From positions 19,582 to 62,891 of the forward strand of contig CABVRW010000018.1 in assembly GCA_902500785.1 (NCBI GenBank): a stretch of 43,310 nucleotides of DNA, read 5' to 3'. Source of the stretch: an uncultured Nitrospira sp. Lineage in GTDB: Bacteria > Nitrospirota > Nitrospiria > Nitrospirales > Nitrospiraceae. The notes under the pieces were generated by a model, which was not told the origin of the DNA, searched no databases, and saw only the letters and a program-made list of their open reading frames with translations. The position numbers and the translations under genes were made by a program. Positions 12,196 through 35,575 of the stretch are shown here, piece after piece; the stretch's first letter is position 1, and every line of letters starts with the position of its first letter.

Positions 12196-12198
12196 CGG

Positions 12199-13350
12199 AT
12201 GCGAAAGATTTGTGTCTTTATTGGCTCACGAGCCAACTACAGCAGTATTAAGTCTGCAATGCAGGCAATTCAAGTTCACCCAGATTTGGAATTACAGGTT
12301 GTCGTTGGTGCCTCCGCCTTGCTGGATCGGTATGGGTCAGTTGTGGAACTCATCGAAAAAGATGGGTTCCAGCCCTTGGCGCGTGTCCACATGCTGATAG
12401 AAGGTGAAACGCCCACAACGATGGCCAAGTCGACTGGGTTGGGCCTACTCGAACTGCCGACGGTATTCGAGAAGATTTGTCCCGATATTGTATTAACGGT
12501 CGGGGACCGATTCGAAACGATGGCCACCACCCTCGCTGCCGCGTACATGAACCTTCCGCTGGCACACACCATGGGAGGAGAAGTCAGTGGGACGATAGAT
12601 GAGAGTATCCGCCACGCCGTGACGAAGTTCGCGCACATTCATTTCCCGGCTTGCTCAGAGGCACGGGACCGCATTGTGAAAATGGGGGAGCGACCTGATA
12701 TGGTTCATCTCGTCGGCTGTCCGAGGATTGATTTGGTCATGGAGGTGATCACGAAAGACCGAAGCGGGATTGGGCCAGACCTGTTTGCTGAAGGGGTGGG
12801 CGAGGCATTTGATATGGCTAAACCGTTTGTCATGGTTTCTCAACATCCAGTGACCACAGAATTTGGTGAAGGGGAACGTCAGATTACTGAAACACTACAT
12901 GCGGTCAAAAAGGTTGGCATCCCAACGATTGTCTTTTGGCCCAATGCGGACGCGGGGTCGGAAGACATTTCTCGTGGAATTAGAAAGTTTCGAGAACGGC
13001 ATGAGGATTCCGGCATGCACTTTTTCAAGAATCTTTCCGCGGAAACATATATCAGGCTGATGGCACGCACAGCTTGCCTCGTGGGGAACTCCAGTAGTGC
13101 AATACGCGAAGGCGCCTTTATTGGGACGCCGGCAGTGAACATCGGGTCCAGGCAGGAGATGCGCCAGCGCGGCCACAATGTCGTTGATGTGGGTAACGAT
13201 GCAGCTCAAATTGCGGATGCCATTCGATCGAGAATGGCGCACGGCGCCTACCCGCCGGAGAAGATCTATGGAGATGGACGTGCGGGAAAAAAAATCGCAG
13301 ATATTCTTTCCCAGTGTCAGGTCCGAATTCAGAAACGGATTACCTACTGA
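12199..13350 (+). CDS. neuC: Hydrolysing UDP-N-acetylglucosamine 2-epimerase
   Basis: Converts UDP-GlcNAc (or a diacetylated bacillosamine derivative in legionaminate makers) to free ManNAc-type sugar plus UDP. The 383 residues show the epimerase signature GSRANYSSIKSAMQAI at the N-terminus, VLTVGDRFETMATTLAAAY, the diagnostic GGEVSGTIDESIRHAVTK followed by FAHIHF, and the nucleotide-binding end VGNSSSAIREGAFIGTP. The GGEVSGTIDESIRH block is typical of the hydrolysing NeuC type rather than the non-hydrolysing WecB type. The window lacks the dehydratase, aminotransferase and acetyltransferase of the legionaminate and pseudaminate routes, which favours plain UDP-GlcNAc as substrate. An A8 run sits near the 3' end (13,287-13,294). 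Confidence 0.9.
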   Translation: MRKICVFIGSRANYSSIKSAMQAIQVHPDLELQVVVGASALLDRYGSVVELIEKDGFQPLARVHMLIEGETPTTMAKSTGLGLLELPTVFEKICPDIVLTVGDRFETMATTLAAAYMNLPLAHTMGGEVSGTIDESIRHAVTKFAHIHFPACSEARDRIVKMGERPDMVHLVGCPRIDLVMEVITKDRSGIGPDLFAEGVGEAFDMAKPFVMVSQHPVTTEFGEGERQITETLHAVKKVGIPTIVFWPNADAGSEDISRGIRKFRERHEDSGMHFFKNLSAETYIRLMARTACLVGNSSSAIREGAFIGTPAVNIGSRQEMRQRGHNVVDVGNDAAQIADAIRSRMAHGAYPPEKIYGDGRAGKKIADILSQCQVRIQKRITY

Positions 13351-13353
13351 ACC

Positions 13354-14058
13354 GTGAAGGTCTTTGGTATCATTCCGGCTCGAGGTGGGTCTAAAGCAAT
13401 TCCCAACAAGAATCTTGTTCCGCTCCTGAATAAGCCACTTCTCAGCTACACTTGTGAAGCTGCGCATCAGAGTTGTCGCCTGAGTCGCATCATTCTTTCC
13501 ACCGATAATGAAGAAATTGCGGAGGTGGGGCGATCCTGTGGAATTGACGTTCCATTTTTACGTCCTCCAGAGTTGGCGCAAGATGAGACGCCTATGCTTG
13601 ATGTTCTGCGCCATGCTCTCGCTTGGGCACGTGAGGAAGGGGACGAGCCCTGTGCCGTGGTCCTCTTGCAACCCACCTCACCCCTCCGTCGTGCCGAACA
13701 CATCGACGGCGCGATAGATCTATTCCTGTCCTCACAGGCTGACACCGTGGTCTCAGTGGTTCAAGTTCCGCATCAATACGGTCCTGCGTCACTGTTGCAG
13801 ATCGATTCCAATGGCCAGCTCCACCCGTATATGGATCAGCCGATAGTTCTTCGCAGACAGGAGAAGCCTAAGTATTACGCGCGTAATGGGCCAGCTGTAT
13901 TGGTAATAAAACCTCAAGTCTTAGAGGCAGGACAACTTTACGGAAATATCGTTCGGCCGTTTGAGATGGAGTGTGCCGACTCGGTGGATATTGATGTGAA
14001 AGACGATGTTGCCCTGGCGGAGTTTTGGCTACTTCGCAGGCGTGGTCATCATAGTTGA
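13354..14058 (+). CDS. neuA: CMP-sialic acid synthetase (acylneuraminate cytidylyltransferase)
   Basis: Activates the nonulosonic acid with CTP to give the CMP-sugar donor. The 234-residue length fits a single-domain enzyme. Visible motifs are IIPARGGSKAIPNKNL (nucleotide-binding loop; many homologues have RKN where this has NKN), ILSTDNEEIAEVGRSCG, VLLQPTSPLRR, YYARNGPAVLVIKP and the metal-site region VDIDVKDDVALAEF. The start is GTG 13,354, three bases after the neuC stop. Together the three neu genes form the minimal route from UDP-GlcNAc to a CMP-sialic acid. The following gene, also three bases away, is the best candidate for the transferase that uses the product. Confidence 0.9.
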   Translation: MKVFGIIPARGGSKAIPNKNLVPLLNKPLLSYTCEAAHQSCRLSRIILSTDNEEIAEVGRSCGIDVPFLRPPELAQDETPMLDVLRHALAWAREEGDEPCAVVLLQPTSPLRRAEHIDGAIDLFLSSQADTVVSVVQVPHQYGPASLLQIDSNGQLHPYMDQPIVLRRQEKPKYYARNGPAVLVIKPQVLEAGQLYGNIVRPFEMECADSVDIDVKDDVALAEFWLLRRRGHHS

Positions 14059-19939: not shown

Positions 19940-20774
19940 CCAGGCTAGGAATTTCCCGGAAACTTCCTATGGGATTGTGAAGCGACTGGAAACCATTGAA
20001 ACCTGGACGGCTGCGGTGGCGAAGCGTCTGGGGAAATCCTCGCTTTCGATTCTCGACTACGGCTGCGGCACCGGTGATCATGTGACCTATCCATTGGCCT
20101 GCCTGGGCCATGGCGTGCTGGGTGTGGACATGCATGAGCCGTCCATTCAGGAAGCGCAACGACGGTATCCGTTGCCGAACCTCGTGTTTCGAACCGATCG
20201 TCTTGAATCGCTGATCCAAGAACATCTCAATTTCGATCTGATCGTCTGTTCCGAAGTGCTGGAACACCTGCGCGAGCCGCTGGACTGTCTCGGTATCATG
20301 CAGCAACTTCTCAGCCCGGGAGGGGCGCTCGTTATCACCACACCCAACGGCTATGGATCCTATGAGATGTTCTGCCGGCTGCAGCGAGGACTGACCAGGA
20401 TCGGGATCGATCAAATTGCCCGCGGTGTGGTTCATGCCCGGCGGCGGGCCAGAGCCCGGTCGATTGAAGCATCCTCGCCGGTGAAAACTTCGCCCTCACA
20501 CGATCAGGTGGGATTCTTGAATTTCGAGTCCGGCCATGTGCAGTTTTTCCGTGTGCGGCGTCTTATGCAATTGTTCGATGCCGGTGGATTTCGGGTGGCG
20601 GACCGGCGGGCAAGAACCTTCTTGTGCGGGCCCTACATTGATGTCCTGCTTCGACTGCCGCCGTTTCGACAGGCTTTGTATAGGATCAACAATCGGGCCG
20701 CCGATGTGTTGCCATTTGCATGGTCCGCTGACTGGATGTTTCTGCTGGAACCCACCGAAAAGAGTGTCGTGTGA
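19929..20774 (+). CDS. Class I SAM-dependent methyltransferase
   Basis: A 281-residue protein with motif I ILDYGCGTGDHVTYPLA, strand-2 acidic end VLGVDMHE, the LIVCSEVLEHLREP motif and a GGALVITTPNGYGSYE strand, all typical of UbiE/Methyltransf_11-type enzymes found in glycan loci. The segment around residues 160-200 is Arg-rich (RRRARARSIEAS) and probably an exposed loop. The ATG overlaps the upstream transferase by 11 bases, and the stop overlaps the GTG of the next gene by four (GTGA), so three genes in a row are translationally coupled. O- or N-methylation of a repeat-unit sugar is the likely role; it could also act on the polymer terminus. Confidence 0.86.
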   Translation: MADSQARNFPETSYGIVKRLETIETWTAAVAKRLGKSSLSILDYGCGTGDHVTYPLACLGHGVLGVDMHEPSIQEAQRRYPLPNLVFRTDRLESLIQEHLNFDLIVCSEVLEHLREPLDCLGIMQQLLSPGGALVITTPNGYGSYEMFCRLQRGLTRIGIDQIARGVVHARRRARARSIEASSPVKTSPSHDQVGFLNFESGHVQFFRVRRLMQLFDAGGFRVADRRARTFLCGPYIDVLLRLPPFRQALYRINNRAADVLPFAWSADWMFLLEPTEKSVV

Positions 20775-22081
20775 CGCAGGACTATCCTCGAATTCTGGTG
20801 GTGACGGGAAATAACTTCAATCTCGTAACCGGCGGCGGCATCACGTTGACCAATCTTTTCCGCGGCTGGCCGTCCGATCGAATTGCTAATGTGCATGACG
20901 ATGCCACGCCGGTGGATCGGACTGTCTGCCAAACGTTTTATCGTCTGACGGAACAGGACATTCGCTGGGTCTGGCCTTTCTCTCTGGTCAGAGGGTCGTA
21001 CGGGCACGTCAAGCGTCTCTCCGGGGGTAGGGAGGGCCCAGCCGGCACGCCGGCCCTATCTGCCGCCACATCCTCCATCGAGATCGCCAGACGATTTATC
21101 GGCGACAGCGTGCCCAAGCGTGCCCATCTCACCGGAGACCTCACCGCGTGGGTGAATGAATTTCAACCCACCCTGTTGTATGGCTTTCTAGGGTCTCTGG
21201 AACAGGTGGATCTGACCCGTCGACTCGCGAAACGGTGGGCGATTCCGTTAGTGGTGCATATGATGGATGACTGGCCGGCTGTGTTGCACACCGGCGGTCT
21301 TTTGGGGCCGGTCATTGGACCGATCCTGCGTCGAGAATTGAAAGCGACGCTCCGTGACGCTGTGGGCCGGTTTGCCATCTGCGAACAAATGTGCGAGGAG
21401 TATCAAGAGCGGTACGGGTATCCGTTTCTGTCGTTTCAGAACGCTCTGGATGTTGACCGGTGGTTGCCTCATGCGCGAACCAGCTGGAAAGCGGGGGCTC
21501 CGTTCGTGTTGCGCTACGTCGGGTCCATCGTGCCGGACGGACAGCGGGAAAGTCTCAGAGATCTCGCCCGCGCCATCGCCCGGTTGTCGGGAGAAGGCAT
21601 CGATGTGCAATTGTGGATTCACTCACCGCCACATGAATCCGCCTATCTTCGCGATCTGTCTTCTCATGCCGTTCGGATCATGGGGCCTCCGGATCCACAT
21701 TCGATCGCGGCCCTCCTCGCAGGAGCGGATCTTCTAGTCTTGCCCTACAACTTCGATGCGCGCAGTGCGCGATACATCCGGCTTTCCCTTCCGACCAAGG
21801 CGCCGGCATATATGATTTCAGGAACTCCGATTCTGGTGTATGCTCCCGGCGACGTGGCGACCGCACGGTATGCCACACGCGAGGGATGGGGATATGTCGT
21901 GGCTTCTCGAGGTGAGGAGCGGTTAATGTTAGCGGTGCGAACGCTGATGCAGAACGAATCGCTTCGCGAACAATTCGCCCGCCGCGCGCAACAGGTCGCC
22001 GTGGCACGGCATGATGCATCGGTGGTTCGGTCGGCCTTTTGGACAGCACTCAGTGAGGCATCCCGCAAGAGATCTAGTTAG
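20771..22081 (+). CDS. GT-B fold glycosyltransferase
   Basis: A 436-residue glycosyltransferase starting at GTG 20,771, which overlaps the preceding stop by four bases. The N-terminus has ILVVTGNNFNLVTGGGITLTN, the acceptor-side strand and glycine loop. The second half has FVLRYVGSIVPDGQRESL, IMGPPDPHSIAALLAGADLLVLPY and PTKAPAYMISGTPIL, the pattern of GT4-like transferases without a strict EX7E. Around residues 85-100 it carries a Gly/Ala/Pro-rich insert (GGREGPAGTPALSAATSS) encoded by a strong GC-rich palindrome at about 21,033-21,057, which looks like an added loop. It forms a coupled trio with the two genes before it. Donor and acceptor are unknown. Confidence 0.82.
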   Translation: MTQDYPRILVVTGNNFNLVTGGGITLTNLFRGWPSDRIANVHDDATPVDRTVCQTFYRLTEQDIRWVWPFSLVRGSYGHVKRLSGGREGPAGTPALSAATSSIEIARRFIGDSVPKRAHLTGDLTAWVNEFQPTLLYGFLGSLEQVDLTRRLAKRWAIPLVVHMMDDWPAVLHTGGLLGPVIGPILRRELKATLRDAVGRFAICEQMCEEYQERYGYPFLSFQNALDVDRWLPHARTSWKAGAPFVLRYVGSIVPDGQRESLRDLARAIARLSGEGIDVQLWIHSPPHESAYLRDLSSHAVRIMGPPDPHSIAALLAGADLLVLPYNFDARSARYIRLSLPTKAPAYMISGTPILVYAPGDVATARYATREGWGYVVASRGEERLMLAVRTLMQNESLREQFARRAQQVAVARHDASVVRSAFWTALSEASRKRSS

Positions 22082-22994: not shown

Positions 22995-24170
22995 GTGGAG
23001 AGAGGGGCATCCACTCATAAGATCCTGATGGCCTGCGCCAATTACTGGACGACTCCGTTCCAAGTGGGAAGCCACCATTTGGCTCGGGGGTTCGTGGACG
23101 CCGGTTGGACGGTCGGGTTCATTTCAGATCCCATTTCTCCGCTGCATCTCTTGGGGGGAGCTCGGAAAGAATTGGCGAGCAGGTTTCGACTCTACCGCGC
23201 CGGTGGTATGTGGGATCTCGAGAAAAATCTCTGGACCTACGTTCCAGGAGCGTTGGCCACCCCGCGCAAACAGCCGCTGCTTCGCAGTCACGCCCTTGAG
23301 CGCGGGTGGGCCAGCCTGACATGGCCTTCACTCGGAGACACCGTGCGGAGCCACGGATTCGGTGAAGTTGAGTTGTTGTACTGCGATAGTCCCAAGCATC
23401 TGTCCTGGTTGTCTCAGATTACCCGCGCGCGAACCATATTTCGGGTTGCCGACAACACCGCGGGGTTCGGGCGAACGACGCCTGCCGCACGAGCGGCTGA
23501 GCGGGAGCTGGCCGGCGCCGCCGATTTGGTGGTGTATAGTGCGGAGACCTTGAAAGAGTATGTGGAGAGCTTGAAGCCGCGTCGCATGGCCCATTTGCCG
23601 AATGGCGTGAATTTTTCTCATTTTGCCAGGCCTGATGTGCCTGTTCCCTCCGAATATGCCTCGATTCGGCGGCCCATTGCCGTCTATGCGGGCTACATGG
23701 ACGCCTGGTTTGACTACGCGCTGTTGAATCGTGTCGTAGCGTCATTGCCGGACGTCTCGTTCGTGCTCATCGGGGGAAGCAATCATGCCCATGCCAGGTT
23801 CGCGCCTGCGCCGAACCTGTATTTACTCGGGCCCCGGCCGTTTTCACGTTTGCCGGAGTACTTACGGGCCGCGGATGTGGGGATCATCCCGTTCGACGTA
23901 CAAGGTCATCCGACGCTCGTGCATAGTATCCATCCCCTGAAGCTCTATGAATACCTCGCTGCAGGGCTTCCCGTGGTCGCTACCCGCTGGAGGGAGCTGG
24001 AGCGTTTGCAGAGCCCGGCGAAGCTGTGTGTATCGGCGGCAGAATTCTCCGGCGCAGTGGCAGCCAGTGTGTCGGAGTCGCCTCGGCGCGCAGAATATTC
24101 GCGATTTGCACAGCAGGCCGATTGGAAGCACCGCGTTCTCCGTCTGCTGGATCTCGCATTTTCTGAGTGA
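22995..24170 (+). CDS. Glycosyltransferase family 1/4-type enzyme
   Basis: A 391-residue GT-B glycosyltransferase starting at GTG 22,995, directly after the preceding stop; GTG or ATG codons a few residues further in are possible starts. Visible are YWTTPFQVGSHHLARGF at the N-terminus, VVYSAETLKEY and HLPNGVNFSHF at the domain linker, and FVLIGGSN, ADVGIIPF and KLYEYLAAGLPVVAT in the donor domain, where KLYEYLAAG is the acidic-loop motif of TuaH-like members. The C-terminus is complete. The following gene has its own ribosome-binding site just after this stop. Role: adds a sugar to the repeat unit; specificity not deducible. Confidence 0.87.
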   Translation: MERGASTHKILMACANYWTTPFQVGSHHLARGFVDAGWTVGFISDPISPLHLLGGARKELASRFRLYRAGGMWDLEKNLWTYVPGALATPRKQPLLRSHALERGWASLTWPSLGDTVRSHGFGEVELLYCDSPKHLSWLSQITRARTIFRVADNTAGFGRTTPAARAAERELAGAADLVVYSAETLKEYVESLKPRRMAHLPNGVNFSHFARPDVPVPSEYASIRRPIAVYAGYMDAWFDYALLNRVVASLPDVSFVLIGGSNHAHARFAPAPNLYLLGPRPFSRLPEYLRAADVGIIPFDVQGHPTLVHSIHPLKLYEYLAAGLPVVATRWRELERLQSPAKLCVSAAEFSGAVAASVSESPRRAEYSRFAQQADWKHRVLRLLDLAFSE

Positions 24171-24189
24171 GCCTCGGAGGAGTGCCGAT

Positions 24190-25287
24190 ATGTCACGCCC
24201 ATTACTGACGATAGACATGCGGATGGTCTTGGCCGCAGGCATCGGCACCTACCTCCGTCAGCTGGTGCCGCGTGTATGGCAAGCAGTGCCGTCTCTCAAC
24301 CTGTGCTTGTTGGGAAGAGCGGAGGCACTGAAGCGATTTGAGTGGGCGCAACAACCCGGTGTCACCATTGTCGAATGTGGTGCACCCATCTATTCCTTGC
24401 GGGAGCAGGGTGAGATTCCCTTAAAGATTCCAACGAAAACAGATCTCTTCTGGTCGCCTCATTACAACATTCCCCTGTTCTTCCGAGGGCGCATGCTCGT
24501 CACGGTTCATGACACCTTTCATCTCGCCATGCCACAATTTGTCAAAGGATGGCATCGTCGACTGTACTCGCGTGTCATGTTTCGAGCGGTACGGTCAAAA
24601 GCAGCCGGCATTGTGTGTGTCTCGCGCTTTGCCAAAGACCAAGTTCTGAAATATTGTCCGACCGGAAAGCAGAACGTCACGGTCGTGCATAACGGAGTGG
24701 ATTCCTCCTGGTTGGAGGTCGTGCCCGGTCCTGCGCCCCATCCGAAACCCTATCTTCTCTTCGTTGGCAGTGTAAAACCCCATAAAAATCTTTCACGACT
24801 CTTAGAGGCCTTTGATCGATTGTTAGAGAAGATTCCGCACGATCTCATCATCATCGGCCGACAGGAGGGGTTCATCACCGGAGACGCGTTGGCGAATGAA
24901 CGAGCCTCTGCAATGCACAGGCGTGTCAAATGTGTGGGGGAAGTAGACCATGATCACGAGATGCTCAGACGATTCTATGCTCATGCCGATGCGCTGATTT
25001 TGCCATCGATCTATGAAAGTTTTGGTCTTCCGGCATTGGAAGCGGCCGCCTCGAGCTGTCCGATTGTCGTCTCTCGGGTAGGGGGGTTGCCGGAGGTGTA
25101 TGGGGAGTCGGCGTTATATTTCGATCCATATGATGTCGGTGATATTGGGAATAAAATATTTCAAATGGTCACGGATCGAGAATTGAGACGTCGGCATATC
25201 GACCGTGGTCGAGCCGTTGCGACCCTGTATGGATGGGATCAGGCCGCGCAACATACGAGCAGGCTTATCCACACACTCCTGGCATAG
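24190..25287 (+). CDS. Glycosyltransferase family 4, mannosyltransferase-like
   Basis: A 365-residue GT4 enzyme. The N-terminus IDMRMVLAAGIGTYLRQLVPR is the GIGTYxxxL pattern seen in GDP-mannose-dependent transferases of O-antigen loci. The donor domain has YLLFVGSVKPHKNLSRLLEAF, the EX7E-type YESFGLPALEA and SRVGGLPEVYGESALYFDP. The frame stays open upstream to 23,947, but the start is ATG 24,190 because GGAGGAG at 24,176-24,182 lies seven bases before it and a longer form would overlap the previous gene by over 200 bases. Mannose is a plausible donor because GDP-mannose is made by ManB and ManC downstream, but this is family-level inference only. Confidence 0.9.
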   Translation: MSRPLLTIDMRMVLAAGIGTYLRQLVPRVWQAVPSLNLCLLGRAEALKRFEWAQQPGVTIVECGAPIYSLREQGEIPLKIPTKTDLFWSPHYNIPLFFRGRMLVTVHDTFHLAMPQFVKGWHRRLYSRVMFRAVRSKAAGIVCVSRFAKDQVLKYCPTGKQNVTVVHNGVDSSWLEVVPGPAPHPKPYLLFVGSVKPHKNLSRLLEAFDRLLEKIPHDLIIIGRQEGFITGDALANERASAMHRRVKCVGEVDHDHEMLRRFYAHADALILPSIYESFGLPALEAAASSCPIVVSRVGGLPEVYGESALYFDPYDVGDIGNKIFQMVTDRELRRRHIDRGRAVATLYGWDQAAQHTSRLIHTLLA

Positions 25288-25317: not shown

Positions 25318-28005
25318 GTGTTTCCACGGAATGCACCCGTGGTTTCGCCGGTCGTAGGCAGGTGGCAAACACTCTTACGTGGTCTATCGAGAGCAGATGC
25401 CATGTGTGACCGAATAGGGCTGATTCTTATCGGGGGACTTCTCCTTTCCCCTCTTGTGTTTAAGGTCCAACTGGCGCCTGGCTTGGTGATCCATCCGGTC
25501 GTGCTGCTCTTGCTGCTCAGTTGGTGTTGGATTGCCGTCGTCATGGTGGCGCCTCTCCGCAAGAGTCTTCGTGGTCTTTATGTGGCTGAATGGCAAGCAT
25601 GGAATATTCCCATGTTCCTGATCGGTCTCCTTGTTGGTGGGCTGGCGTGCAGTCTGACCATCAACAATCTGCGAGTGGGCTCGTTTCAATCGGGTGGCTG
25701 GCTGCTTTTGGCCAAATGGTCGCTGTATCTCGCACCGCTGCCGCTCGCCGCGCTCCTGGCCATACGTACCGGATTGACGGTGGTCAGGGTTGTGAGTTGG
25801 CTGGTGCCCCTGACGGCCTGCGCGACGCTGCTGTATTCGCTGTACCGACTACGCCATGGGATTGGCTTGGATTTGCCTCAGCACTATGTCGGGTCCTCTC
25901 CCGAGTTCCAAGCTCTGGGAATGTTGGGCGAAGTCTGGACCCGAGAAGGGTTGCAGGTGCGGACGGATACGGTGAGTCAGGGCGCCTATGGCATGTATCT
26001 GGTGCTCATCCTGGTCTTTAGTCTGCTGATGGGTCTTTTTCGAGGCTGGGAAGGGATCGTTCCGGTTCGATATGCGATCGGTCAGTGCCTCATCCTGGCC
26101 CCTTTGGCGATCATGGGGATTCTCTTTACCGGGTCCCGAGCGAGTTTCTTCTTGATGGCAGGATGTCTGACCATTTTAGTTGGTCTGATCCTCATCAATC
26201 CAAAGCGCATAGTGCCCTCCGTCGCCAGACGATGGTTCCTGCTCAGTCTGGGCGTCATCGTCTGTGTGCTGCTGGTCAGCCAGGCGTTCTGGAAGCCCTT
26301 TATCCCCACACTGGACCGTGTGCGTGAGACCGTTCAGACCGCGCACACGATGAGCGGCCACTACGCCGTGTCTCCCGGAGAACAGCCGGTCGAGACACGC
26401 GTCGTGCTGCGTAACGTTCAGACGCGATTGTGGCTATGGAGGCAAGTCGTTCATTATTTACAGACCCATCCGTTAGCCATTTTGATCGGAGTGGGCTACG
26501 ACCGCCAAGTATTCGTTGAGCGAGTGTTGGGCCTGCCCTACACAAATGCCAACTTCCAATTTCAAACTGCTCATAGTTTGTTGCTCGACATTCTCGTGAA
26601 GGGCGGCTTGGTGCCGTTTGTCGCATTGATTTTGCTTTATGCATGGTTATTGTGGGAGGCGGTGCTGGGCATGATGATTCCGCGCGGCATCAAACAAGAT
26701 CACGCCAGGATCGGATTGGCATGGGCGCTGCTCTGTTTTTGGCCTCCTTTTTTTGGAGCCAATTTTTCCGGTGAAGAGATGTTCACCGACAATCTCCTCC
26801 TCCATTGGTCGCTGTTAGCCGGTTTGTTGCTGGGGCTGTGTGTGGTGGCCCTCCGGCAATGGCTCCCAGGCCAAATTGCGCATGTCACCGCTACGGCAGG
26901 CCTGGGCGGAGGCCCCGCATACATTACGGCCTTGGCCAGGCATCAGCTGAGCGAAGGCAAGAATGTCCGCATCTTCTGTTCGGATGAAAAGCCATATGTA
27001 GACACTTGGTCACAGATGGGCATTGATGTGTCAGCACTCCCTATGCGCCGGCCGAATATCTCGTCTGTATGGCTGCTCTTGAAAGAACTGCTACGTGCAC
27101 CCGCCCCGATACATGCTCATGGAAGGGGCGCTGCGTTTTTTGCCGTGTGGGTCAAAATACTAGTGCGGATCCCGGTCATTTATCAGCCACATGGGCCGCA
27201 CTATGCCTTCAAACGTGGATGCCGGTATGTGTCCGGCTGGTTTTTTGAAGCGTTCTGCCGCTTGCTATTCGATGCCATAATCTACGTATCCGAGGGAGAA
27301 CGAGCGATTGCCCGCCGTCAGAGGCTTCCCGTCGGTCGATCCCGTGTGATCGTATCCGGCTTCATGCAGGAATCGGGTATCGTCTCGGCCAACCGATTGG
27401 AACGAGATGTCCTGCTCGCCACGTTACATATCCCCAAGGAGAGATTCGTGATCGGGTGGATCGGCCGGTTTCAATATCCCAAGGGCCTCGATCTCCTGTT
27501 CGATTCGATCGCGAACGTTGCGGCATGCGTGCCGGAAGCGATCTGGATTGTCATCGGAGAAGGCAGTGGTCAAGAAATGAGCGACTCTCGAGAGAGAATC
27601 GCGAAGCTGGGGATTCAAGAAAAGATCATCTTTCTCGGCGCTCGCACTGATGCCTTCGAGCTCATCCGGGTGTTCGACCTGTATATCTCGACGTCACGCT
27701 GGGAAGGCCTTCCACTCGTATTGCTCGAAGTGATGGAACAAGGCGTACCGATCGTGGCGAGTGACGTGGTCGGCAACCGGGACGTGCTCGACGGCTGGGG
27801 AGCCCTATATCCTCCGAACGATTCACGGGCCGCGGCGGATGCTCAGGTGCGATTAGCGGCCGACGCGTCGTTGAGGCAACGGTTGGCGGCGGCCGGCCGA
27901 GAGGTTCGCCTGACCCGGTTTTCGCTTTCCCGCATGCTTGCGGATATGGATCGTGCCTATGTCGACATTCTTGGTGATGAGATCGCGGGCGAGGCCAGGC
28001 AGTGA
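25318..28005 (+). CDS. Fusion of Wzy/O-antigen ligase-like polymerase and GT4 glycosyltransferase
   Basis: One uninterrupted 895-residue frame with two parts. Residues 1 to about 520 are a polytopic membrane protein with O-antigen polymerase/ligase character: many hydrophobic helices, FTGSRASFFLMAGCLTI (about 270), a large extramembrane loop (about 330-420) and TAHSLLLDILVKGGLVPF, the usual HN/HS-x-LLD region. Residues from about 525 are a GT-B transferase: TAGLGGGPAYITAL at the acceptor loop, FVIGWIGRFQYPKGLDLL, and an EX7E pair at Glu796/Glu804. No stop or frameshift separates them. The likely job is polymerising repeat units outside while adding a sugar on the cytoplasmic side. The start is GTG 25,318; ATG 25,402 would also suit the topology. 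Confidence 0.88.
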   Translation: MFPRNAPVVSPVVGRWQTLLRGLSRADAMCDRIGLILIGGLLLSPLVFKVQLAPGLVIHPVVLLLLLSWCWIAVVMVAPLRKSLRGLYVAEWQAWNIPMFLIGLLVGGLACSLTINNLRVGSFQSGGWLLLAKWSLYLAPLPLAALLAIRTGLTVVRVVSWLVPLTACATLLYSLYRLRHGIGLDLPQHYVGSSPEFQALGMLGEVWTREGLQVRTDTVSQGAYGMYLVLILVFSLLMGLFRGWEGIVPVRYAIGQCLILAPLAIMGILFTGSRASFFLMAGCLTILVGLILINPKRIVPSVARRWFLLSLGVIVCVLLVSQAFWKPFIPTLDRVRETVQTAHTMSGHYAVSPGEQPVETRVVLRNVQTRLWLWRQVVHYLQTHPLAILIGVGYDRQVFVERVLGLPYTNANFQFQTAHSLLLDILVKGGLVPFVALILLYAWLLWEAVLGMMIPRGIKQDHARIGLAWALLCFWPPFFGANFSGEEMFTDNLLLHWSLLAGLLLGLCVVALRQWLPGQIAHVTATAGLGGGPAYITALARHQLSEGKNVRIFCSDEKPYVDTWSQMGIDVSALPMRRPNISSVWLLLKELLRAPAPIHAHGRGAAFFAVWVKILVRIPVIYQPHGPHYAFKRGCRYVSGWFFEAFCRLLFDAIIYVSEGERAIARRQRLPVGRSRVIVSGFMQESGIVSANRLERDVLLATLHIPKERFVIGWIGRFQYPKGLDLLFDSIANVAACVPEAIWIVIGEGSGQEMSDSRERIAKLGIQEKIIFLGARTDAFELIRVFDLYISTSRWEGLPLVLLEVMEQGVPIVASDVVGNRDVLDGWGALYPPNDSRAAADAQVRLAADASLRQRLAAAGREVRLTRFSLSRMLADMDRAYVDILGDEIAGEARQ

Positions 28006-29303
28006 TGGCGGCGAGCTCTGCGTCCTCATTGGGCCGTGCAGCGCTCCCATTGATTGTCTCCGATGTCGCGCTTCAGGGCGCGCGATATGCCTTCATTCTC
28101 TACCTCGGCTCCCAATCACTGTCCTACTTGGGATCATTCCTAATGGGTGGGGCATTGGGGTCGCTTTTGGGGGTGCTCACCGATTTCGGGATCAGTCAGC
28201 ATTGGCTGCGTCTGAGTGTGAAGGATGCGCGCCTCACTCGCCGAACGTTTACGGGAGTGCTGCTCGGCAAAACTCTCTGTTCGCTCCTAGGACTACTCCT
28301 GCTTGATTTGCTCGTCGTCGGAGGCATGTGGAACGTGACGACTCCGTTGGCGATGACCATCGGGGTTTTTCTTATGACACTTCAGTCGCTGGGGGACACG
28401 TGCGAAGCCGTCGGCCTGTTGTTCCATCGTTATGTAACCGTGGCCCTGTTCCGGCTGTTACTGAGCCTAGGCATGTATGCCATACCCCTCGCCTGCGGCG
28501 TCCTGCTGGCCCAAGCTCATTATTCGGGTGGGATCTTCATCATGCTGGTGACAGCCGCAGCCGGTGGCGTGGCGTTATCGTCGCTGTACATTTGGAAGGT
28601 GGCCGGCGCATTCCATGGGCAACAGGGCACGAGAGTCGGGTATGGAGAGGCATGGTGGGATGCTCGGTGGCTCGGATTGAATCAATTGGCCGTGGTGGTT
28701 GACGTGCGAGCCCCATTGATCATCCTGGGTTTCATGCTGGGAGAAACAGCGGTCGGTTTGTACGGTCTCGTGCAGAGGACCACCGCGGTGGTGGAGCTGG
28801 CGTGGGCGTCCATCTCCAGATTGCTGCTGACTTCATACTCGGAACTTGTCGGAGAACATGGTGCTCAGAGGATGAGAGCGCAGGTCATCCATGCGGGCAG
28901 GGTGACGGCTATAATCATGGCGGTGGCGGCGATGTGTGTGTGGGGATCGGCGCTTCTTCTTGTCAGAATCGCTGAATGGTCGAGAGAGACTATCCTCGCC
29001 ATTTCGCTCTTGCAATGGGCGATGGTAGCCATCGGACTCAGCTCAATCAAGCGGCCGTTCGTGTCGGGGCTGATCGCCCTGCATCGAGAGCGAGCCATCG
29101 TCCGCGTCAATATGGGGGTGGCCGCAACAGGCCTGATTCTGGTTCCACTGCTCATCGCCTATTGGGGCATTTGGGGTCCAGTTCTCGGATGGGTCATTCT
29201 TGAAGCTGCCGCCTGTGTGTGGATCATTCAGCTCTTTCTTGCCGTGCCGCTCGCTGCTGAAGCGAATCTTGATCCGTCACTGTCTCAACGTGCCGTCCTT
29301 TGA
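28002..29303 (+). CDS. Wzx-type polysaccharide flippase (second copy)
   Basis: A 433-residue hydrophobic protein with roughly a dozen transmembrane segments and the general composition of PST-family repeat-unit flippases: an N-terminal DVALQGARYAFILYLGSQSL, short charged cytoplasmic loops (SVKDARLTRRTF, HRERAIVRV) and a long C-terminal hydrophobic run. Start choices are GTG 28,002, overlapping the fusion stop by four bases, or ATG 28,005. It follows the Wzy fusion directly, so Wzy and this Wzx probably serve the same repeat unit. The other flippase at 8,848 lies in the lower-GC block. Family assignment rests on hydrophobicity pattern and context rather than a sharp motif. Confidence 0.82.
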   Translation: MMAASSASSLGRAALPLIVSDVALQGARYAFILYLGSQSLSYLGSFLMGGALGSLLGVLTDFGISQHWLRLSVKDARLTRRTFTGVLLGKTLCSLLGLLLLDLLVVGGMWNVTTPLAMTIGVFLMTLQSLGDTCEAVGLLFHRYVTVALFRLLLSLGMYAIPLACGVLLAQAHYSGGIFIMLVTAAAGGVALSSLYIWKVAGAFHGQQGTRVGYGEAWWDARWLGLNQLAVVVDVRAPLIILGFMLGETAVGLYGLVQRTTAVVELAWASISRLLLTSYSELVGEHGAQRMRAQVIHAGRVTAIIMAVAAMCVWGSALLLVRIAEWSRETILAISLLQWAMVAIGLSSIKRPFVSGLIALHRERAIVRVNMGVAATGLILVPLLIAYWGIWGPVLGWVILEAAACVWIIQLFLAVPLAAEANLDPSLSQRAVL

Positions 29304-29335
29304 ACGGGATCGTACTCTCTCGACGAAGGGATGGA

Positions 29336-30511
29336 ATGCGAGTCGCGATTATCCATGATTGGCTGACCGGCATGCGTGGTGGAGAACGGTGCCTGGAAGC
29401 GTTTTGTGAACTGTTTCCCGACGCCGACATTTATACCCTCCTCCACATCAACGGGAGCGTGTCACCCACGATCGAGCGTCACCGAATCCGGACCAGTTTC
29501 GTGCAATCGTTGCCGCTGGCGGAGCGATACTACCGGTATTATTTGCCTGTCTTTCCTTTTGCCATCGAGCGATTTCGACTGCCGTCCTATGATCTGGTCT
29601 TGAGTTCAAGCCATTGCGTCGCGAAGGGCATTCGTCCCCCGGTCGGCGCAAAACATCTTTGTTACATCCATTCGCCTATGCGGTATGTATGGGACCAATT
29701 CGATAACTATGCGCGTGGCGGGAGGTCGGGAGGGGTAGCACGGTTGGGCATGGGGTTGTTTCGAAGGCGTCTGCAGCGATGGGATGTGGCCTCCGCAGCG
29801 CGGGTGGATCAGTTCGTGGCCAATTCCCATAACATCGCCGGGAAGGTGCACCGTTATTACAATCGCCCGGCATCCGTGCTGCATCCGCCGGTCGATTGGC
29901 AGACATTTGAGGCAGCGGAACAATCCGAAGACTTCTATTTGATGGTTACGGCCTTTGCTCCGTACAAGCGAGTTGATCTCGCTATTCAGGCGTGTAATGT
30001 TATGCATCGGCGACTGAAGATCATCGGCAAGGGGCAAGAGGAGGCGAGGTTGCGAAAGCTGGCCGGTCCGACGGTTGAGTTTCTCGGCTGGCAGCCCGAC
30101 ACAGTCGTGCGGGACCATTACGCGCGGTGCCAGGCGCTACTCTTCCCAGGTGAGGAAGATTTTGGTATTGTCCCGCTGGAAGCCATGGCCTGTGGCAAGC
30201 CTGTGATCGCATTCGGGCGCGGCGGCGTCTTGGAGACCGTGTGTCCCCTGACGGAAGGAGTCAGGGGAGGCGAGGGGCTCGCGCGAGTGGACTCAGCCGG
30301 TGCCGAGGCCCCGGCCGGAGCTGCGACGGGAGTGTTTTTTTTCGCGCAGACCACGGAGTCGCTGGTTCAGGCGATGGAGCGTTTCGAGCGCCGCCGGGCA
30401 GCGTTTGATCCACACACCATTCGTGCCCATGTAGCCGCATTCGACCGGCGGTCGTTCAAGGAGCGCATGAAAGCCTTCGCGATGGGAGCGCTGACCGGTA
30501 CGGCTTCATAG
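29336..30511 (+). CDS. Glycosyltransferase family 4, WbaZ-like
   Basis: A 391-residue GT4 enzyme beginning VAIIHDWLTGMRGGERCLE, the hallmark N-terminus of WbaZ/MtfC-type mannosyl- and related transferases. Also visible are HLCYIHSPMRYVWDQF, FVANSHNIAGKVHRYY, LHPPVDWQTF and the EX7E-type GEEDFGIVPLEAMACGKPVIAF. The start is ATG 29,336, with GAAGGG five bases upstream; the frame is open back to a TTG at 29,300 that overlaps the flippase stop. After GGVLETV there is an extra loop of about 25 residues (around 305-330), Gly/Ala-rich, encoded partly by a perfect 8-base inverted repeat and followed by a T8 run. The fold should tolerate it. Confidence 0.9.
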   Translation: MRVAIIHDWLTGMRGGERCLEAFCELFPDADIYTLLHINGSVSPTIERHRIRTSFVQSLPLAERYYRYYLPVFPFAIERFRLPSYDLVLSSSHCVAKGIRPPVGAKHLCYIHSPMRYVWDQFDNYARGGRSGGVARLGMGLFRRRLQRWDVASAARVDQFVANSHNIAGKVHRYYNRPASVLHPPVDWQTFEAAEQSEDFYLMVTAFAPYKRVDLAIQACNVMHRRLKIIGKGQEEARLRKLAGPTVEFLGWQPDTVVRDHYARCQALLFPGEEDFGIVPLEAMACGKPVIAFGRGGVLETVCPLTEGVRGGEGLARVDSAGAEAPAGAATGVFFFAQTTESLVQAMERFERRRAAFDPHTIRAHVAAFDRRSFKERMKAFAMGALTGTAS

Positions 30512-30518
30512 AGGGAGC

Positions 30519-31919
30519 ATGCTCAAACGCCACTCCCAATTTCTCAAGAGTCTGCTGTTCTGTATCGATCTCGGGCTGATTTGCGCCTGCTGGATCGGCG
30601 CCTACTATCTTCGTTTCTCAGAGTTTATTGAACCGGCACCCAAGGGAATTCCTCCCTTGGATATCTATCTCCTGCTGCTCGTTCCGATCGTCGCGGTCTG
30701 GGGCATGTCGTTTCAAGCCTTCGACCTCTACCGGCCTCGCCGGATGGGGACGCGTCTCGCCGAATTTCTGGATGTGGCCAAAGCCAACACCCTCTCGGTA
30801 CTGATTCTGGTCGCCCTGACGTTCTTTCTTCGACAATACGAATATTCCCGATTGGTGCTGTTGTATTTCTGGCTGTTGAATCTTGTCGCGCTGGGCTTTT
30901 CGCGCGTCCTGTTTCGGGAAGCGCTACGATTCCTGCGCCGGCATGGGTACAATCAACGTCATGCGCTGATCATCGGTGCCAGTCGATTGGGTCGCCGGGT
31001 GGTGACGGCGCTGGCGGAGCATCCGGAACTGGGCGTTCACGTGCAAGGGTTTTTGAGCGCGGATCCTGGAAAAGTGGGCGAATGTATCCATAATGTTCCG
31101 GTCCTGGGACGGTACGATGATCTGGAAGAACTCGTCCAATCGGGCATCGACATCGTTTTTGTCTGTCTTCCTCCCGAAGACGAACAGTGGGCGGAGAAGA
31201 TGTTTGTCTATCTGGCCACGACCATGGTCGAAGTGAAGGCCTTGCCGGCGATGTGCGAGTTTGTGAGTTTACGGGCGGAAGCCGAGATGTTCGAGGGCCT
31301 CCCGTTGATCACGTTGCAAGGATCGCCGTTGTACGGGTGGAATTTGGTCATCAAACGGGTGTTGGATGTGGTCGGCGCATCGGCTGCGTTGGTCTTGTTC
31401 TCACCGCTGTTGTGCGCGGTGGCGTCCTTGGTGAAACTGACCTCTCCCGGTCCGATCTTTTTCCGTCAGCTCCGCATGGGATTGGACGGGCAGGCGTTTG
31501 AAATGTTGAAGTTCCGGTCGATGAAAGTCGATGCCGAGTCCGAAACCGGTCCGGTCTGGACGCAACCCAACGATGATCGCCGGACTTCTATCGGAGCGTT
31601 TTTGCGTCGCACGAGTTTGGACGAGCTGCCGCAATTCTGGAACGTGTTGCGCGGGGAGATGAGCATCGTCGGGCCCAGGCCGGAACGGCCGGAATTTATC
31701 GCGCGATTTCGTGAGACTCTGCCGCAGTATATGTTGCGGCACAAGATGAAAGCAGGGATTACCGGCTGGGCGCAAATCAACGGCTGGCGCGGCAACACGT
31801 CGCTGGAAAAACGAATCGAGCATGACCTGTACTATATTGAACATTGGTCGATCTGGTTTGACTTAAAGATCATGCTGCTCACGGTTTGGCGAGGGTTTAT
31901 CCATCGGCATGCCTACTGA
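30519..31919 (+). CDS. Undecaprenyl-phosphate phosphoglycosyltransferase, WcaJ-type
   Basis: A 466-residue polyisoprenyl-phosphate hexose-1-phosphate transferase that starts repeat-unit synthesis by moving sugar-1-phosphate, typically glucose, onto undecaprenyl phosphate. The N-terminal half has four hydrophobic segments, then a Rossmann-like region (HALIIGASRLGRRVV). The C-terminal catalytic domain (about 275-466) has KRVLDVVGASAAL, SPGPIFFRQLRMG, FEMLKFRSM, the DE motif in RRTSLDELPQFWN (about 363-375), MSIVGPRPERPEF and GITGWAQINGWRG. The gene starts at ATG 30,519 with AGAGGGAG immediately upstream, and is the last glycan-assembly gene of the locus. The class is certain; glucose versus another sugar is not. 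Confidence 0.93.
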   Translation: MLKRHSQFLKSLLFCIDLGLICACWIGAYYLRFSEFIEPAPKGIPPLDIYLLLLVPIVAVWGMSFQAFDLYRPRRMGTRLAEFLDVAKANTLSVLILVALTFFLRQYEYSRLVLLYFWLLNLVALGFSRVLFREALRFLRRHGYNQRHALIIGASRLGRRVVTALAEHPELGVHVQGFLSADPGKVGECIHNVPVLGRYDDLEELVQSGIDIVFVCLPPEDEQWAEKMFVYLATTMVEVKALPAMCEFVSLRAEAEMFEGLPLITLQGSPLYGWNLVIKRVLDVVGASAALVLFSPLLCAVASLVKLTSPGPIFFRQLRMGLDGQAFEMLKFRSMKVDAESETGPVWTQPNDDRRTSIGAFLRRTSLDELPQFWNVLRGEMSIVGPRPERPEFIARFRETLPQYMLRHKMKAGITGWAQINGWRGNTSLEKRIEHDLYYIEHWSIWFDLKIMLLTVWRGFIHRHAY

Positions 31920-32003: not shown

Positions 32004-32032
32004 TTGAGTTTCAGGCGGTGGCTTGTTAACAT
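32004..32032 (+). promoter_or_regulatory. Candidate sigma-70 promoter ahead of kdsC-manC-manB
   Basis: TTGAGT at 32,004-32,009 and TAACAT at 32,027-32,032 are separated by 17 bases; each matches the sigma-70 consensus at four of six positions. Transcription would start near 32,039, which lies after the TTG at 32,023 and so supports ATG 32,056 as the start of the phosphatase gene. Seen in sequence; activity is inferred. Confidence 0.4.
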
Positions 32033-32055
32033 CGGCGTCAGTCGAAAGCCCTCGC

Positions 32056-32595
32056 ATGTCCAGCACAACACGCCGGTCCACAACTCCCGCTAAGCCTCGC
32101 GTCTCCTTACAAGGAACGCTCCGAAGGATCCGATTGTTTGCGACGGATGTCGATGGCGTGTTGACGGACGCCGGCATGTACTATTCCGAATCCGGCGACG
32201 AATGGAAAAAGTTCAACACGCGTGATGGGATGGGGATCAAGCTCCTGCAGAAGGCAGGCATTCTGACCGCCATCATTACGCAAGAGTCGACGAAAATCGT
32301 GATGCGACGAGCACAAAAGCTGACGATTCCTGAAGTGCACCAGGGAGTCTATGACAAGCTCGCCCTGCTCAAGGAGTTGATTGTCCGACATGGCCTCACG
32401 ATGGAACAGGTGGCCTATATCGGCGATGATGTGAACGATCTTCAGGCGTTGAGGGCGGTCGGATTTTCGGCCTCCCCGGCCGACGGGATGCCGCCGGTGT
32501 TGAAGACGGTTCGATACGTGTGCAAGCACAAGGGCGGAGAAGGCGCCGTACGCGAAGTAGCCGATCTCATTTTGGCGGCTCGGCAGTCGCGCTGA
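32056..32595 (+). CDS. KdsC-like HAD-family phosphatase
   Basis: A 179-residue HAD phosphatase of the C0 (capless) type, like 3-deoxy-D-manno-octulosonate 8-phosphate phosphatase. Motif I is FATDVDGVLTD, followed by KKFNTRDGMGIKLLQKAG and AIITQEST (motif II Thr). The motif III/IV region is VYDKLALL followed by VAYIGDDVNDLQAL, and the C-terminal tail CKHKGGEGAVREV is the one that completes the neighbouring active site in KdsC tetramers. A Kdo-8-phosphate role is typical. No other Kdo gene is present and NeuB uses an unphosphorylated sugar, so the link to the neu genes is weak. The start is ATG 32,056 (weak ribosome-binding site); the frame is open to TTG 32,023. It is 47 bases before manC. Confidence 0.82.
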   Translation: MSSTTRRSTTPAKPRVSLQGTLRRIRLFATDVDGVLTDAGMYYSESGDEWKKFNTRDGMGIKLLQKAGILTAIITQESTKIVMRRAQKLTIPEVHQGVYDKLALLKELIVRHGLTMEQVAYIGDDVNDLQALRAVGFSASPADGMPPVLKTVRYVCKHKGGEGAVREVADLILAARQSR

Positions 32596-32642
32596 GTCAT
32601 CCGCAATCACGGTATGCCAATGACAATAGTGAAGGGCGCTCC

Positions 32643-34091
32643 ATGGACATGACGAAACATCTCTATCCGGTGATTTTGGCCGGCGGCAGCGGGACACGCT
32701 TTTGGCCGTTAAGCCGGCATCTGTATCCGAAACAACTCCTGCGGATCATCGGCAACGAGACGCTCATTCAACAGACGATGCGGCGCGTCCTCTCCTGCGC
32801 GAAGCCCGAGCAGGTCATCATCTCCACCAACCCGGGTCAGGCGGATTCGATTCGCGTACAGTTGGCCGAGTGGAAGTCCGCGTTGAAAAGCAATTATGTG
32901 ATCGAGCCGGTCGGTCGAAACACCGCTCCGGCCATTGCGTTGGTTGCGGCGGAGCTCTTGCTGCGCGATCCTGATGCGATGATGCTGGTTCTTCCGGCGG
33001 ATCATGTGGTGACGGGCGAAAAGGCGTTTCAGTCGGCGGTGGCGTTGGGCGTGCAACTGGCCGATCAGGGACATCTGGTGACGTTCGGCATTAAGCCGAC
33101 CAGGCCGGAGACGGGCTATGGCTACATTCAGCCTAATCGACGATCATCGCTCGCCAAGAAGGGTCGGCTGACCGGGCATCCGGTCGCGCGGTTTGTCGAA
33201 AAACCGAACCGGACCAAGGCGGCGCAGTATCTGAAGAACGGCAATTACTTTTGGAACAGCGGAATGTTTCTCTGGAAGGCGGCCACCATTCTGGAGGAAA
33301 TTCACCGGCATCAGCCGCAGCTGGCCAAGGCCATTCAGCGGGTCCATGCTCTCATGGCATCGGGTGCCGAGCCAGGGCTGGTCGAGACCGCCTATAAGAA
33401 GGTGCCGTCGGTGTCGATCGATAACGGGGTCATGGAACAGTCGGCCCATGCGGCGATGATTCCGGTCGGATTCGGATGGTCGGATGTAGGCAATTGGAGC
33501 AGTCTCGAAGAGGTTTCCCCACGCGACAAGGCCGGGAACGTCGTCAGTGGGCGAGTCATCGATATGGACAGCACCAATTCCGTCCTCTACGCCGATCGAC
33601 GAGTGGTCGCGACCATCGGACTCTCCGATATGGTGGTGGTGGATACGCCGGATGCCACGTTGATCTGCCCGAAATCGCGCTCCCAAGACGTGAAGCAGAT
33701 GGTCGAGATTCTCAAGCAGCAGGGGGCTCCCGAACATTTGGAGCATCTGACCGTGTTTCGCCCCTGGGGATCCTACACGGTCTTGGAGGAAGGTCCTGGA
33801 TACAAGGTCAAGCGGGTGACGGTGAGCCCCGGAGGACGTTTGTCTCTGCAATTGCACCATAAGCGCAGCGAGCATTGGGTCGTCATTGCCGGAACCGCGC
33901 GGGTGACGAGAGGTGAAGAACTCCTGGATCTGCGGGTCGGACAGAGCACCGCCATCCCTGTGGAGACGCCCCATCGTCTTGAAAATCTCGGCCCTGAGAT
34001 GTTGCACATCATCGAGGTCCAGAACGGCCCCTATCTTGGTGAAGACGATATCGTGCGGTTCCAGGACGACTATGGCCGAACACCGAAATGA
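32643..34091 (+). CDS. manC: Bifunctional mannose-1-phosphate guanylyltransferase / mannose-6-phosphate isomerase
   Basis: A 482-residue type II enzyme. The N-terminal domain (about 1-345) makes GDP-mannose from mannose-1-phosphate and GTP: ILAGGSGTRFWPLSRHLYPKQ is the pyrophosphorylase signature, with NTAPAIALVA, LPADHVV, FVEKPNRTKAAQYL and NYFWNSGMFLW. The C-terminal cupin (about 360-480) is the mannose-6-phosphate isomerase domain, with RPWGSYTVLEEGPGYKVKR, LSLQLHHKRSEHWVV and IPVETPHRLEN. The frame stays open upstream to 32,520, but ATG 32,643 is preceded by GAAGG seven bases away and gives the family length. It supplies GDP-mannose for Gmd/Fcl and for mannosyltransferases. manB follows after 83 bases. 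Confidence 0.95.
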   Translation: MDMTKHLYPVILAGGSGTRFWPLSRHLYPKQLLRIIGNETLIQQTMRRVLSCAKPEQVIISTNPGQADSIRVQLAEWKSALKSNYVIEPVGRNTAPAIALVAAELLLRDPDAMMLVLPADHVVTGEKAFQSAVALGVQLADQGHLVTFGIKPTRPETGYGYIQPNRRSSLAKKGRLTGHPVARFVEKPNRTKAAQYLKNGNYFWNSGMFLWKAATILEEIHRHQPQLAKAIQRVHALMASGAEPGLVETAYKKVPSVSIDNGVMEQSAHAAMIPVGFGWSDVGNWSSLEEVSPRDKAGNVVSGRVIDMDSTNSVLYADRRVVATIGLSDMVVVDTPDATLICPKSRSQDVKQMVEILKQQGAPEHLEHLTVFRPWGSYTVLEEGPGYKVKRVTVSPGGRLSLQLHHKRSEHWVVIAGTARVTRGEELLDLRVGQSTAIPVETPHRLENLGPEMLHIIEVQNGPYLGEDDIVRFQDDYGRTPK

Positions 34092-34174: not shown

Positions 34175-35575
34175 ATGGCGCTGTTTCGCGAATATGATCT
34201 GAGAGGCATTGTCGGAGAAGAACTCACCGAAGCAATCGCCGAGCAAGTGGGGCGAGCCTATGCCACCATGGCCCGGGAACAGGGAGCATCACGAATCAGC
34301 CTCGGGAGAGACGGCAGGCTGAGCTCGCCCGGGTTGCAAGAGGCCTTGGTTCGCGGACTGTTGGCCGGCGGGCTTGATGTGGTCGACTTGGGGCTCTGTG
34401 CCTCTCCGCTCCTGTACTTTTCATTATTTACCTTGCCGGTGGACGGTGGGATCATGATCACCGGCAGCCACAACGCCGCTGAATACAATGGCTTTAAGAT
34501 CTGCATCGGGAAAGAAGCGATTCACGGGGAAGAGATTCAGCGATTGCGGCGGGTCATGGAAGCCGGTCAATTCACGGCTGGTTCCGGTCGGCTCTCCGCC
34601 CATCCCATCATTCCCGATTACTTGCACCATCTCAAAACGAACTTTGCCGGCGTGCGGGCCGACCATCTCCATGTCGTGATCGATTGCGGCAACGGCGCGG
34701 CCTCGTTGGTGGCCAAGCAGGCGCTCGAGCAGATGGGGTGCCGCGTCACCGGACTCTATGATGAATTGGACGGACGATTCCCCAATCACCATCCTGACCC
34801 CACGGTCGTGGAAAACCTTCAGGATTTGATCGCGACGGTGAAGGAGCAGAAGGCCGATGTCGGCATCGGCTACGACGGAGACGCCGACCGGATCGGTGCG
34901 GTCGACGAACGGGGAGAAATTCTTTGGGGCGATCGACTGATGATTGTGTACGCGCGGGATATCCTTGCCGAGCGGCCCGGCACTACGTTTATCTCCGAGG
35001 TCAAGGCCTCGCAATGTTTGTATGACGACATCGCGGCGAAGGGCGGACGGCCGATCATGTGGAAAACCGGCCACTCGCTGATGAAGGCCAAGCTGAAAGC
35101 CGAGTCCGCAGTCCTGGCCGGAGAAATGTCCGGCCATATGTTTTTTGCCGATCGCTATTTCGGTTTCGATGATGCCATCTATGCGTCCTGCCGCTTGGTT
35201 GAGATTCTGGCCAAAACCAAACAGTCGCTCTCCAGTTTAGTCGCCGACCTTCCCCAGACGACGGTGACGCCGGAGATTCGCGTTGACTGTCCCGATGCGT
35301 TGAAGTTTCAACTGGTCGATCAGGTGCGAGCGCAATTGACGGCCTACCTCGCTGACGGTCAGCCGGTCGGCGCGTCGAATCTTCGCCTGCGTGAGTTGGT
35401 GACGATCGACGGCGTCCGCGCGATTTTTGATGATGGATGGGGCCTGATCCGAGCCTCCAATACGCAGCCAGCGCTGGTCCTCCGGTTTGAAGCTCCCTCG
35501 CCGGCCCGGCTGGATGTGATTCGCGCGACCATCGAAACCGAGCTCGCGCAGGCACGACGTGTTCTGTCGGCATAA
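34175..35575 (+). CDS. manB: Phosphomannomutase / phosphoglucomutase
   Basis: A 466-residue alpha-D-phosphohexomutase that interconverts mannose-6-phosphate and mannose-1-phosphate (often glucose phosphates too). Key sites in order: ISLGRDGRLSSPGL; the phosphoserine loop TGSHNAAEYNG with Ser98; the Mg site GYDGDADRIG (Asp234, Asp236, Asp238); the sugar-specificity loop GEMSGHMFF; and the C-terminal phosphate-binding GLIRASNTQPALVLRFEA. The length and the GEMSGH loop fit the AlgC/ManB type with dual specificity. GGAG sits about six bases before ATG 34,175. With ManC it closes the path from fructose-6-phosphate to GDP-mannose. The stop overlaps the next start by 17 bases. Confidence 0.94.
   Translation: MALFREYDLRGIVGEELTEAIAEQVGRAYATMAREQGASRISLGRDGRLSSPGLQEALVRGLLAGGLDVVDLGLCASPLLYFSLFTLPVDGGIMITGSHNAAEYNGFKICIGKEAIHGEEIQRLRRVMEAGQFTAGSGRLSAHPIIPDYLHHLKTNFAGVRADHLHVVIDCGNGAASLVAKQALEQMGCRVTGLYDELDGRFPNHHPDPTVVENLQDLIATVKEQKADVGIGYDGDADRIGAVDERGEILWGDRLMIVYARDILAERPGTTFISEVKASQCLYDDIAAKGGRPIMWKTGHSLMKAKLKAESAVLAGEMSGHMFFADRYFGFDDAIYASCRLVEILAKTKQSLSSLVADLPQTTVTPEIRVDCPDALKFQLVDQVRAQLTAYLADGQPVGASNLRLRELVTIDGVRAIFDDGWGLIRASNTQPALVLRFEAPSPARLDVIRATIETELAQARRVLSA

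Follow-up and report, generated by a model that had tools for sequence, protein, structure and literature searches.

Does the single long frame that joins a Wzy-type membrane domain to a glycosyltransferase in an exopolysaccharide locus of Nitrospira encode one bifunctional enzyme, or two activities that merely share a chain? The window analysed here is a stretch of 43,310 nucleotides, positions 19582-62891 of contig C18 of a Nitrospira genome (Table 1). The first-pass annotation, made from the letters alone, had described one open frame of 895 codons in which an O-antigen polymerase/ligase-like domain, reaching to about residue 520, is followed by a complete GT-B transferase of the GT4 family with an EX7E pair at Glu796/Glu804, and each of these points was borne out, the border lying at about residue 516. 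Our Pfam analysis found Wzy_C (PF04932) at residues 263-438 (E 5e-12; 46.3 bits against a curated cut-off of 31.7), GT4 N-domain matches at residues 530-679 (E 8e-12 and 1e-11) and a GT4 C-domain match at residues 703-862 (E 1e-26), the transferase half exceeding the cut-offs of PF13692, PF00534, PF13579 and PF13439; by these sequence matches the domain identities of both halves are well supported. The exact start codon is unsure, because residues 1-23 are poorly conserved and modelled with low confidence.

Table 1. Features of the window around the fusion gene (positions are those of the window)
Feature	Position	Strand	Evidence or remark
Wzy_C-GT4 fusion gene	25318..28005	+	895 codons, GTG start, TGA stop, one open frame; kept in 11 Nitrospira genomes
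12-TM Wzy/O-antigen-ligase-like half, residues ~25-515	25390..26862	+	Pfam Wzy_C, model, loop charges, dN/dS 0.10-0.20
GT4 (GT-B fold) half, residues ~518-886	26869..27975	+	Pfam; HepE/BshA/PimA fold match, Z up to 30.7; dN/dS 0.10-0.18
EX7E motif Glu796-Glu804	27703..27729	+	Invariant in 11 orthologues
Wzx-like MOP flippase	28002..29303	+	Overlaps the fusion's stop codon (GTGA); model; always with the fusion
GumK-like glycosyltransferase, conserved left flank	22995..24170	+	Pfam GumK_N, E 8e-18; kept with and without the cassette
GT4 glycosyltransferase, cassette left border	23947..25287	+	62-64% identical in loci without the cassette
GT4 glycosyltransferase, cassette right border	29300..30511	+	74-85% identical across loci
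WcaJ-type undecaprenyl-phosphate glucose phosphotransferase (initiating enzyme)	30519..31919	+	NCBIfam TIGR03023, 508 bits against a cut-off of 411
HAD-like protein and ManC (GDP-mannose supply)	32023..34091	+	Pfam/NCBIfam
Phosphomannomutase/phosphoglucomutase	34175..35575	+	Pfam/NCBIfam

The AlphaFold model of the fusion protein (pLDDT 71, pTM 0.69) contains twelve transmembrane helices, the last at residues 491-515, and the first strand of the transferase follows at residues 519-525, which leaves practically no linker between the halves. With both termini inside, the predicted cytosolic loops are mostly rich in Lys and Arg (18, 21, 8, 25, 14 and 13 per 100 residues), and the charges of two long loops and of the 484-490 loop are compatible with the periplasm. 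The model, the loop charges and the alignment together predict a long periplasmic loop of the Wzy half with a conserved His and conserved Arg residues. The earlier expectation that the polymerase would face the periplasm and the GT4 the cytoplasm thus agrees with the predicted topology, and a cytosolic C-terminus would place the GT4 where its nucleotide-sugar donor is. In a fold search the GT half resembles solved GT4 enzymes, namely HepE (Z 30.7 over 331 residues at 2.9 A), BshA, PimA and WaaG. The lists returned for the full model were filled by such GT-domain matches, and a sequence comparison of the Wzy half with the PDB gave chance matches only.

Searching 197 related genomes revealed ten further full-length copies, all in the genus Nitrospira and 48-55% identical over about 860-890 residues, so that with the window the fusion is present in 11 of 29 Nitrospira genomes; it occurs in about a third of the species. 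A TGA flagged in one copy (G027) proved to be the stop codon of the gene itself, which the match happened to include. The alignment of the orthologues has no indel from residue 505 to residue 535. Both halves and the junction are maintained by purifying selection, since dN/dS between close pairs is low throughout: 0.10-0.20 for the membrane half, 0.10-0.18 for the GT half and, across the junction, 0-0.11. The active-site residues are invariant among the 11 orthologues: in the GT half these are E796, E804, R717 and K722, in the membrane half R215, R274, R396 and H419.

Both halves have unfused relatives within the genus. In five other Nitrospira loci the fusion's position, immediately ahead of the conserved GT4 and WcaJ genes, is taken by a stand-alone GT4; in a FastTree phylogeny of few sequences these stand-alone enzymes are sister to the fused GT4s (support 0.88). 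The genome G016 holds a membrane-half relative, 46-47% identical and with its start cut by a contig edge, which ends directly after the last transmembrane helix and has no GT after it, as well as a broken second copy of the Wzy half (C111:5318-5569, L159) that is spread over two frames with stops and ends after TM12; alternatively, both copies may be leftovers of fusions from which the GT was lost. The existence of unfused relatives implies that the fusion is not required for either activity. It also lends weight to the view that two operon neighbours were joined by chance and that the joint product was kept as harmless, both enzymes being active with no functional coupling: the genes of the locus run head to tail and overlap, a stand-alone GT4 occupies the same slot elsewhere, and the G016 relative stops just where the transferase would begin. 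However, the junction has survived roughly 50% divergence of the sequence across 11 genomes without an indel and under a dN/dS of 0-0.11, and the same pair of domains was fused a second time independently, which makes a chance join, in our judgement, fairly unlikely.

That second fusion is an 830-residue Wzy_C-GT4 protein of another Nitrospirota family (L078, 2406-4895 on G386:C3), the one case of fusion to a GT4 when about 30 long Wzy_C frames from the phylum were checked; three other long PF04932 frames scanned with Pfam contained TPR repeats, DUF192 and nothing else, respectively. Like the Nitrospira protein, it has Wzy_C followed by GT4 in one frame; it differs in having a linker of about 30 residues before the canonical GT4 start and in being known from one genome. 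Its GT4 falls on a different branch of the tree from the fused GT4s of Nitrospira, and on the strength of this branch and the linker we conclude that the Wzy_C-GT4 fusion arose at least twice. The membrane-half family had no member outside the genus Nitrospira at E 1e-10 among 395 Nitrospirota genomes of 169 genera. A scan of genome contigs with two short patterns, which distant relatives would escape, returned Nitrospira-type records only, and neither fusion protein is covered to 80% by any plasmid record; these figures describe the Nitrospirota and the plasmid records and carry no claim of global rarity. No published description of a Wzy-GT fusion was found in the open papers searched.

The surrounding genes form an exopolysaccharide locus. 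Methyltransferases, the GumK-like GT and GT4 genes lie 5' of the fusion; a GT4, the WcaJ-type initiating enzyme (of which most genomes of the genus have a near-identical copy), the HAD protein, ManC and the phosphomannomutase lie 3' of the fusion and the flippase gene. The true start of the left-border GT4 is probably near 24171-24200, since the frame opening at 23947 overlaps the previous gene. Three genomes (G012, G023 and G007) have the same gene order with the fusion and the flippase both missing, and the GT genes at the two borders there share 62-64% and 82-84% identity with those of the window. Where the pair is present, both of its members show 45-55% identity to their counterparts in the window, against 74-96% for the downstream genes. 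All 11 fusion-bearing genomes have the flippase gene; in a twelfth (G005) the flippase is a contig-edge fragment and the expected place of the fusion lies off the contig. Joint absence from otherwise colinear loci and joint presence elsewhere indicate that fusion and flippase are gained and lost together. In O-antigen loci the wzx and wzy genes behave alike, being gained and lost as a pair and diverging quickly, as this pair does against its flanks. In the same cluster, window 20771-22081 encodes a protein of 436 residues with no Pfam match and a weak match to a WcaI-type GT model, which is 62-85% identical in most cassette-bearing loci and is also kept where the cassette is absent.

The kinship of the adjoining gene, on which the first reading was silent, is recognizable by predicted fold alone. 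No Pfam or NCBIfam family matches the gene at 28002-29303, and a profile comparison with the other Wzx of the window gave no match. Its model (pLDDT 82, pTM 0.81) is a 12-helix MOP transporter whose best Foldseek match is the lipid III flippase WzxE (E 1e-6; Z 25.7 over 389 residues); MATE proteins score equally well and MurJ proteins nearly so. We call the putative flippase Wzx-like, not Wzx, because no curated Wzx-type sequence family matches it. Judged from the model, it looks like a member of an undescribed Wzx family.

PF04932 spans ligases and polymerases alike, and the membrane half might be a WaaL- or PglL-like ligase that hands the completed glycan on to a lipid or a protein; the same cluster does contain a separate Wzy_C protein. 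The membrane half, however, is accessory (11 of 29 genomes), diverges fast (41-50% identity) and comes and goes with its paired flippase gene, a behaviour more in keeping with a serotype-type polymerase than with a ligase whose acceptor is fixed; we hold the ligase to be improbable, and gene context points to a polymerase.

The cluster already contains another Wzy_C protein (C18:18261-19616, just upstream of the window) and another Wzx (window 8848-10320), which speaks against the fusion as clearly the sole polymerase. Relatives of the upstream Wzy, 71-79% identical, are found both in cassette-bearing genomes (L152, L155) and in genomes that lack the cassette (L146-L148); genes for multi-helix Wzx-like proteins occur at the corresponding position. 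Since a second Wzy and Wzx are present with and without the cassette, the cassette is an addition and not the sole polymerisation set. One way to read such an addition, in which GT4, putative GT-C domain and flippase make up a single cassette, follows three-component glycosylation systems: a sugar or short branch would be built on a lipid by the GT4, carried over by the flippase and added as a decoration, by the Wzy-like domain, to the polymer that the other Wzy produces. Known systems of that type rely on a GT2 enzyme as polyprenyl-phosphate sugar synthase, together with a small flippase of the GtrA type. Here, in contrast, a GT4 acts in the cytoplasm and the flippase is of the MOP type that serves whole repeat units, and this reading is even less probable than the ligase. 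An artefact of sequencing or assembly that joined two genes can be dismissed, as no hidden stop or frameshift was found near the junction, no orthologous locus was seen split there into two genes, and ten other Nitrospira genomes, several of them finished to one or a few contigs, keep the identical frame.

We are modestly inclined to regard the fusion as one enzyme with two functions, polymerase and glycosyltransferase, in an exopolysaccharide module of the Wzx/Wzy type, the GT4 acting in the cytosol and the polymerase site facing the periplasm. It is proposed that the WcaJ-type enzyme would start an undecaprenyl-diphosphate-linked repeat unit, to which the GT4 domain would add a sugar at the cytoplasmic face, probably late in the unit's assembly or as its last residue. 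The unit would then cross the membrane by way of the Wzx-like flippase that the overlapping gene encodes, and the 12-helix Wzy domain would polymerise the units at the periplasmic face. Which sugar is added, and its late position, are inferred parts of this scheme, as is the functional coupling of the GT4 and Wzy activities; with both enzymes in one chain and a likely carrier encoded by the adjoining gene, physical coupling of these steps is probable. Because the predicted topology puts the two active sites on opposite faces of the membrane, the substrate cannot be channelled directly and must be flipped between them. What the fusion may do is keep the transferase at the assembly site in a 1:1 ratio with the polymerase and let both specificities be inherited together, as a cassette gained or lost within a conserved locus. 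Wzy_C has been linked to beta-linked O antigens (82%), in a report quoted in PMC12502699; by analogy, this might hint at a beta bond between the units.

The protein combines features of two well-known enzyme classes. With Wzy polymerases and O-antigen ligases (PF04932, GT-C fold) it shares the Wzy_C match, the twelve predicted transmembrane helices, the long predicted periplasmic loop with an invariant His, and invariant Arg residues; a usual Wzy, however, ends at the last helix, as does the G016 relative, whereas here the GT4 follows directly. With the GT4 enzymes HepE, BshA, PimA, WaaG and WbnH it shares the GT-B fold, as predicted by the model, the EX7E motif and the conserved donor-site Arg and Lys, though those enzymes are separate and peripheral while this GT4 is tethered to a polytopic membrane protein. 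The enterobacterial common antigen genes wzxE, wecF, wzyE and wecG (rffM), adjacent in E. coli K-12, similarly bring flippase, transferase and polymerase genes side by side, nearly or actually overlapping, but encode four separate proteins; by analogy, their arrangement could plausibly represent a stage before fusion.

A complex of Wzx, Wzy and Wzz has often been proposed and little proven, and Hong and Reeves asked in 2015 whether the complex proposed is real (PMC4863624); two-hybrid tests of one terminal GT against Wzy yielded single positives that were ambiguous (PMC7589315). Tethering of the transferase to the assembly site is plausible and fits this literature on suspected complexes. A bolder version, in which fusion and overlapping flippase form a cross-membrane repeat-unit assembly complex that makes completion, flipping and polymerisation one coupled event, is possible and we offer it tentatively. 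A conserved covalent GT-Wzy fusion provides a Rosetta-stone argument for joint action, it opens a direct test of coupling, and the single chain could be used for structural work on Wzy. New beyond the first-pass annotation are the flippase-like neighbour, the presence and absence of the pair as a cassette, the unfused relatives of both halves and the independent fusion in another Nitrospirota family.

Two further features may be recorded. Upstream of the window on contig C18, in the same gene cluster, a gene (L035, 418-2247) encodes another fusion, in which a GT9 heptosyltransferase-like domain and a HAD phosphatase domain share 609 residues. Within the window, genes for a NeuB-family synthase, a UDP-GlcNAc 2-epimerase and a cytidylyltransferase are consecutive (11194-14058), which suggests a nonulosonic acid in a surface glycan of the organism.
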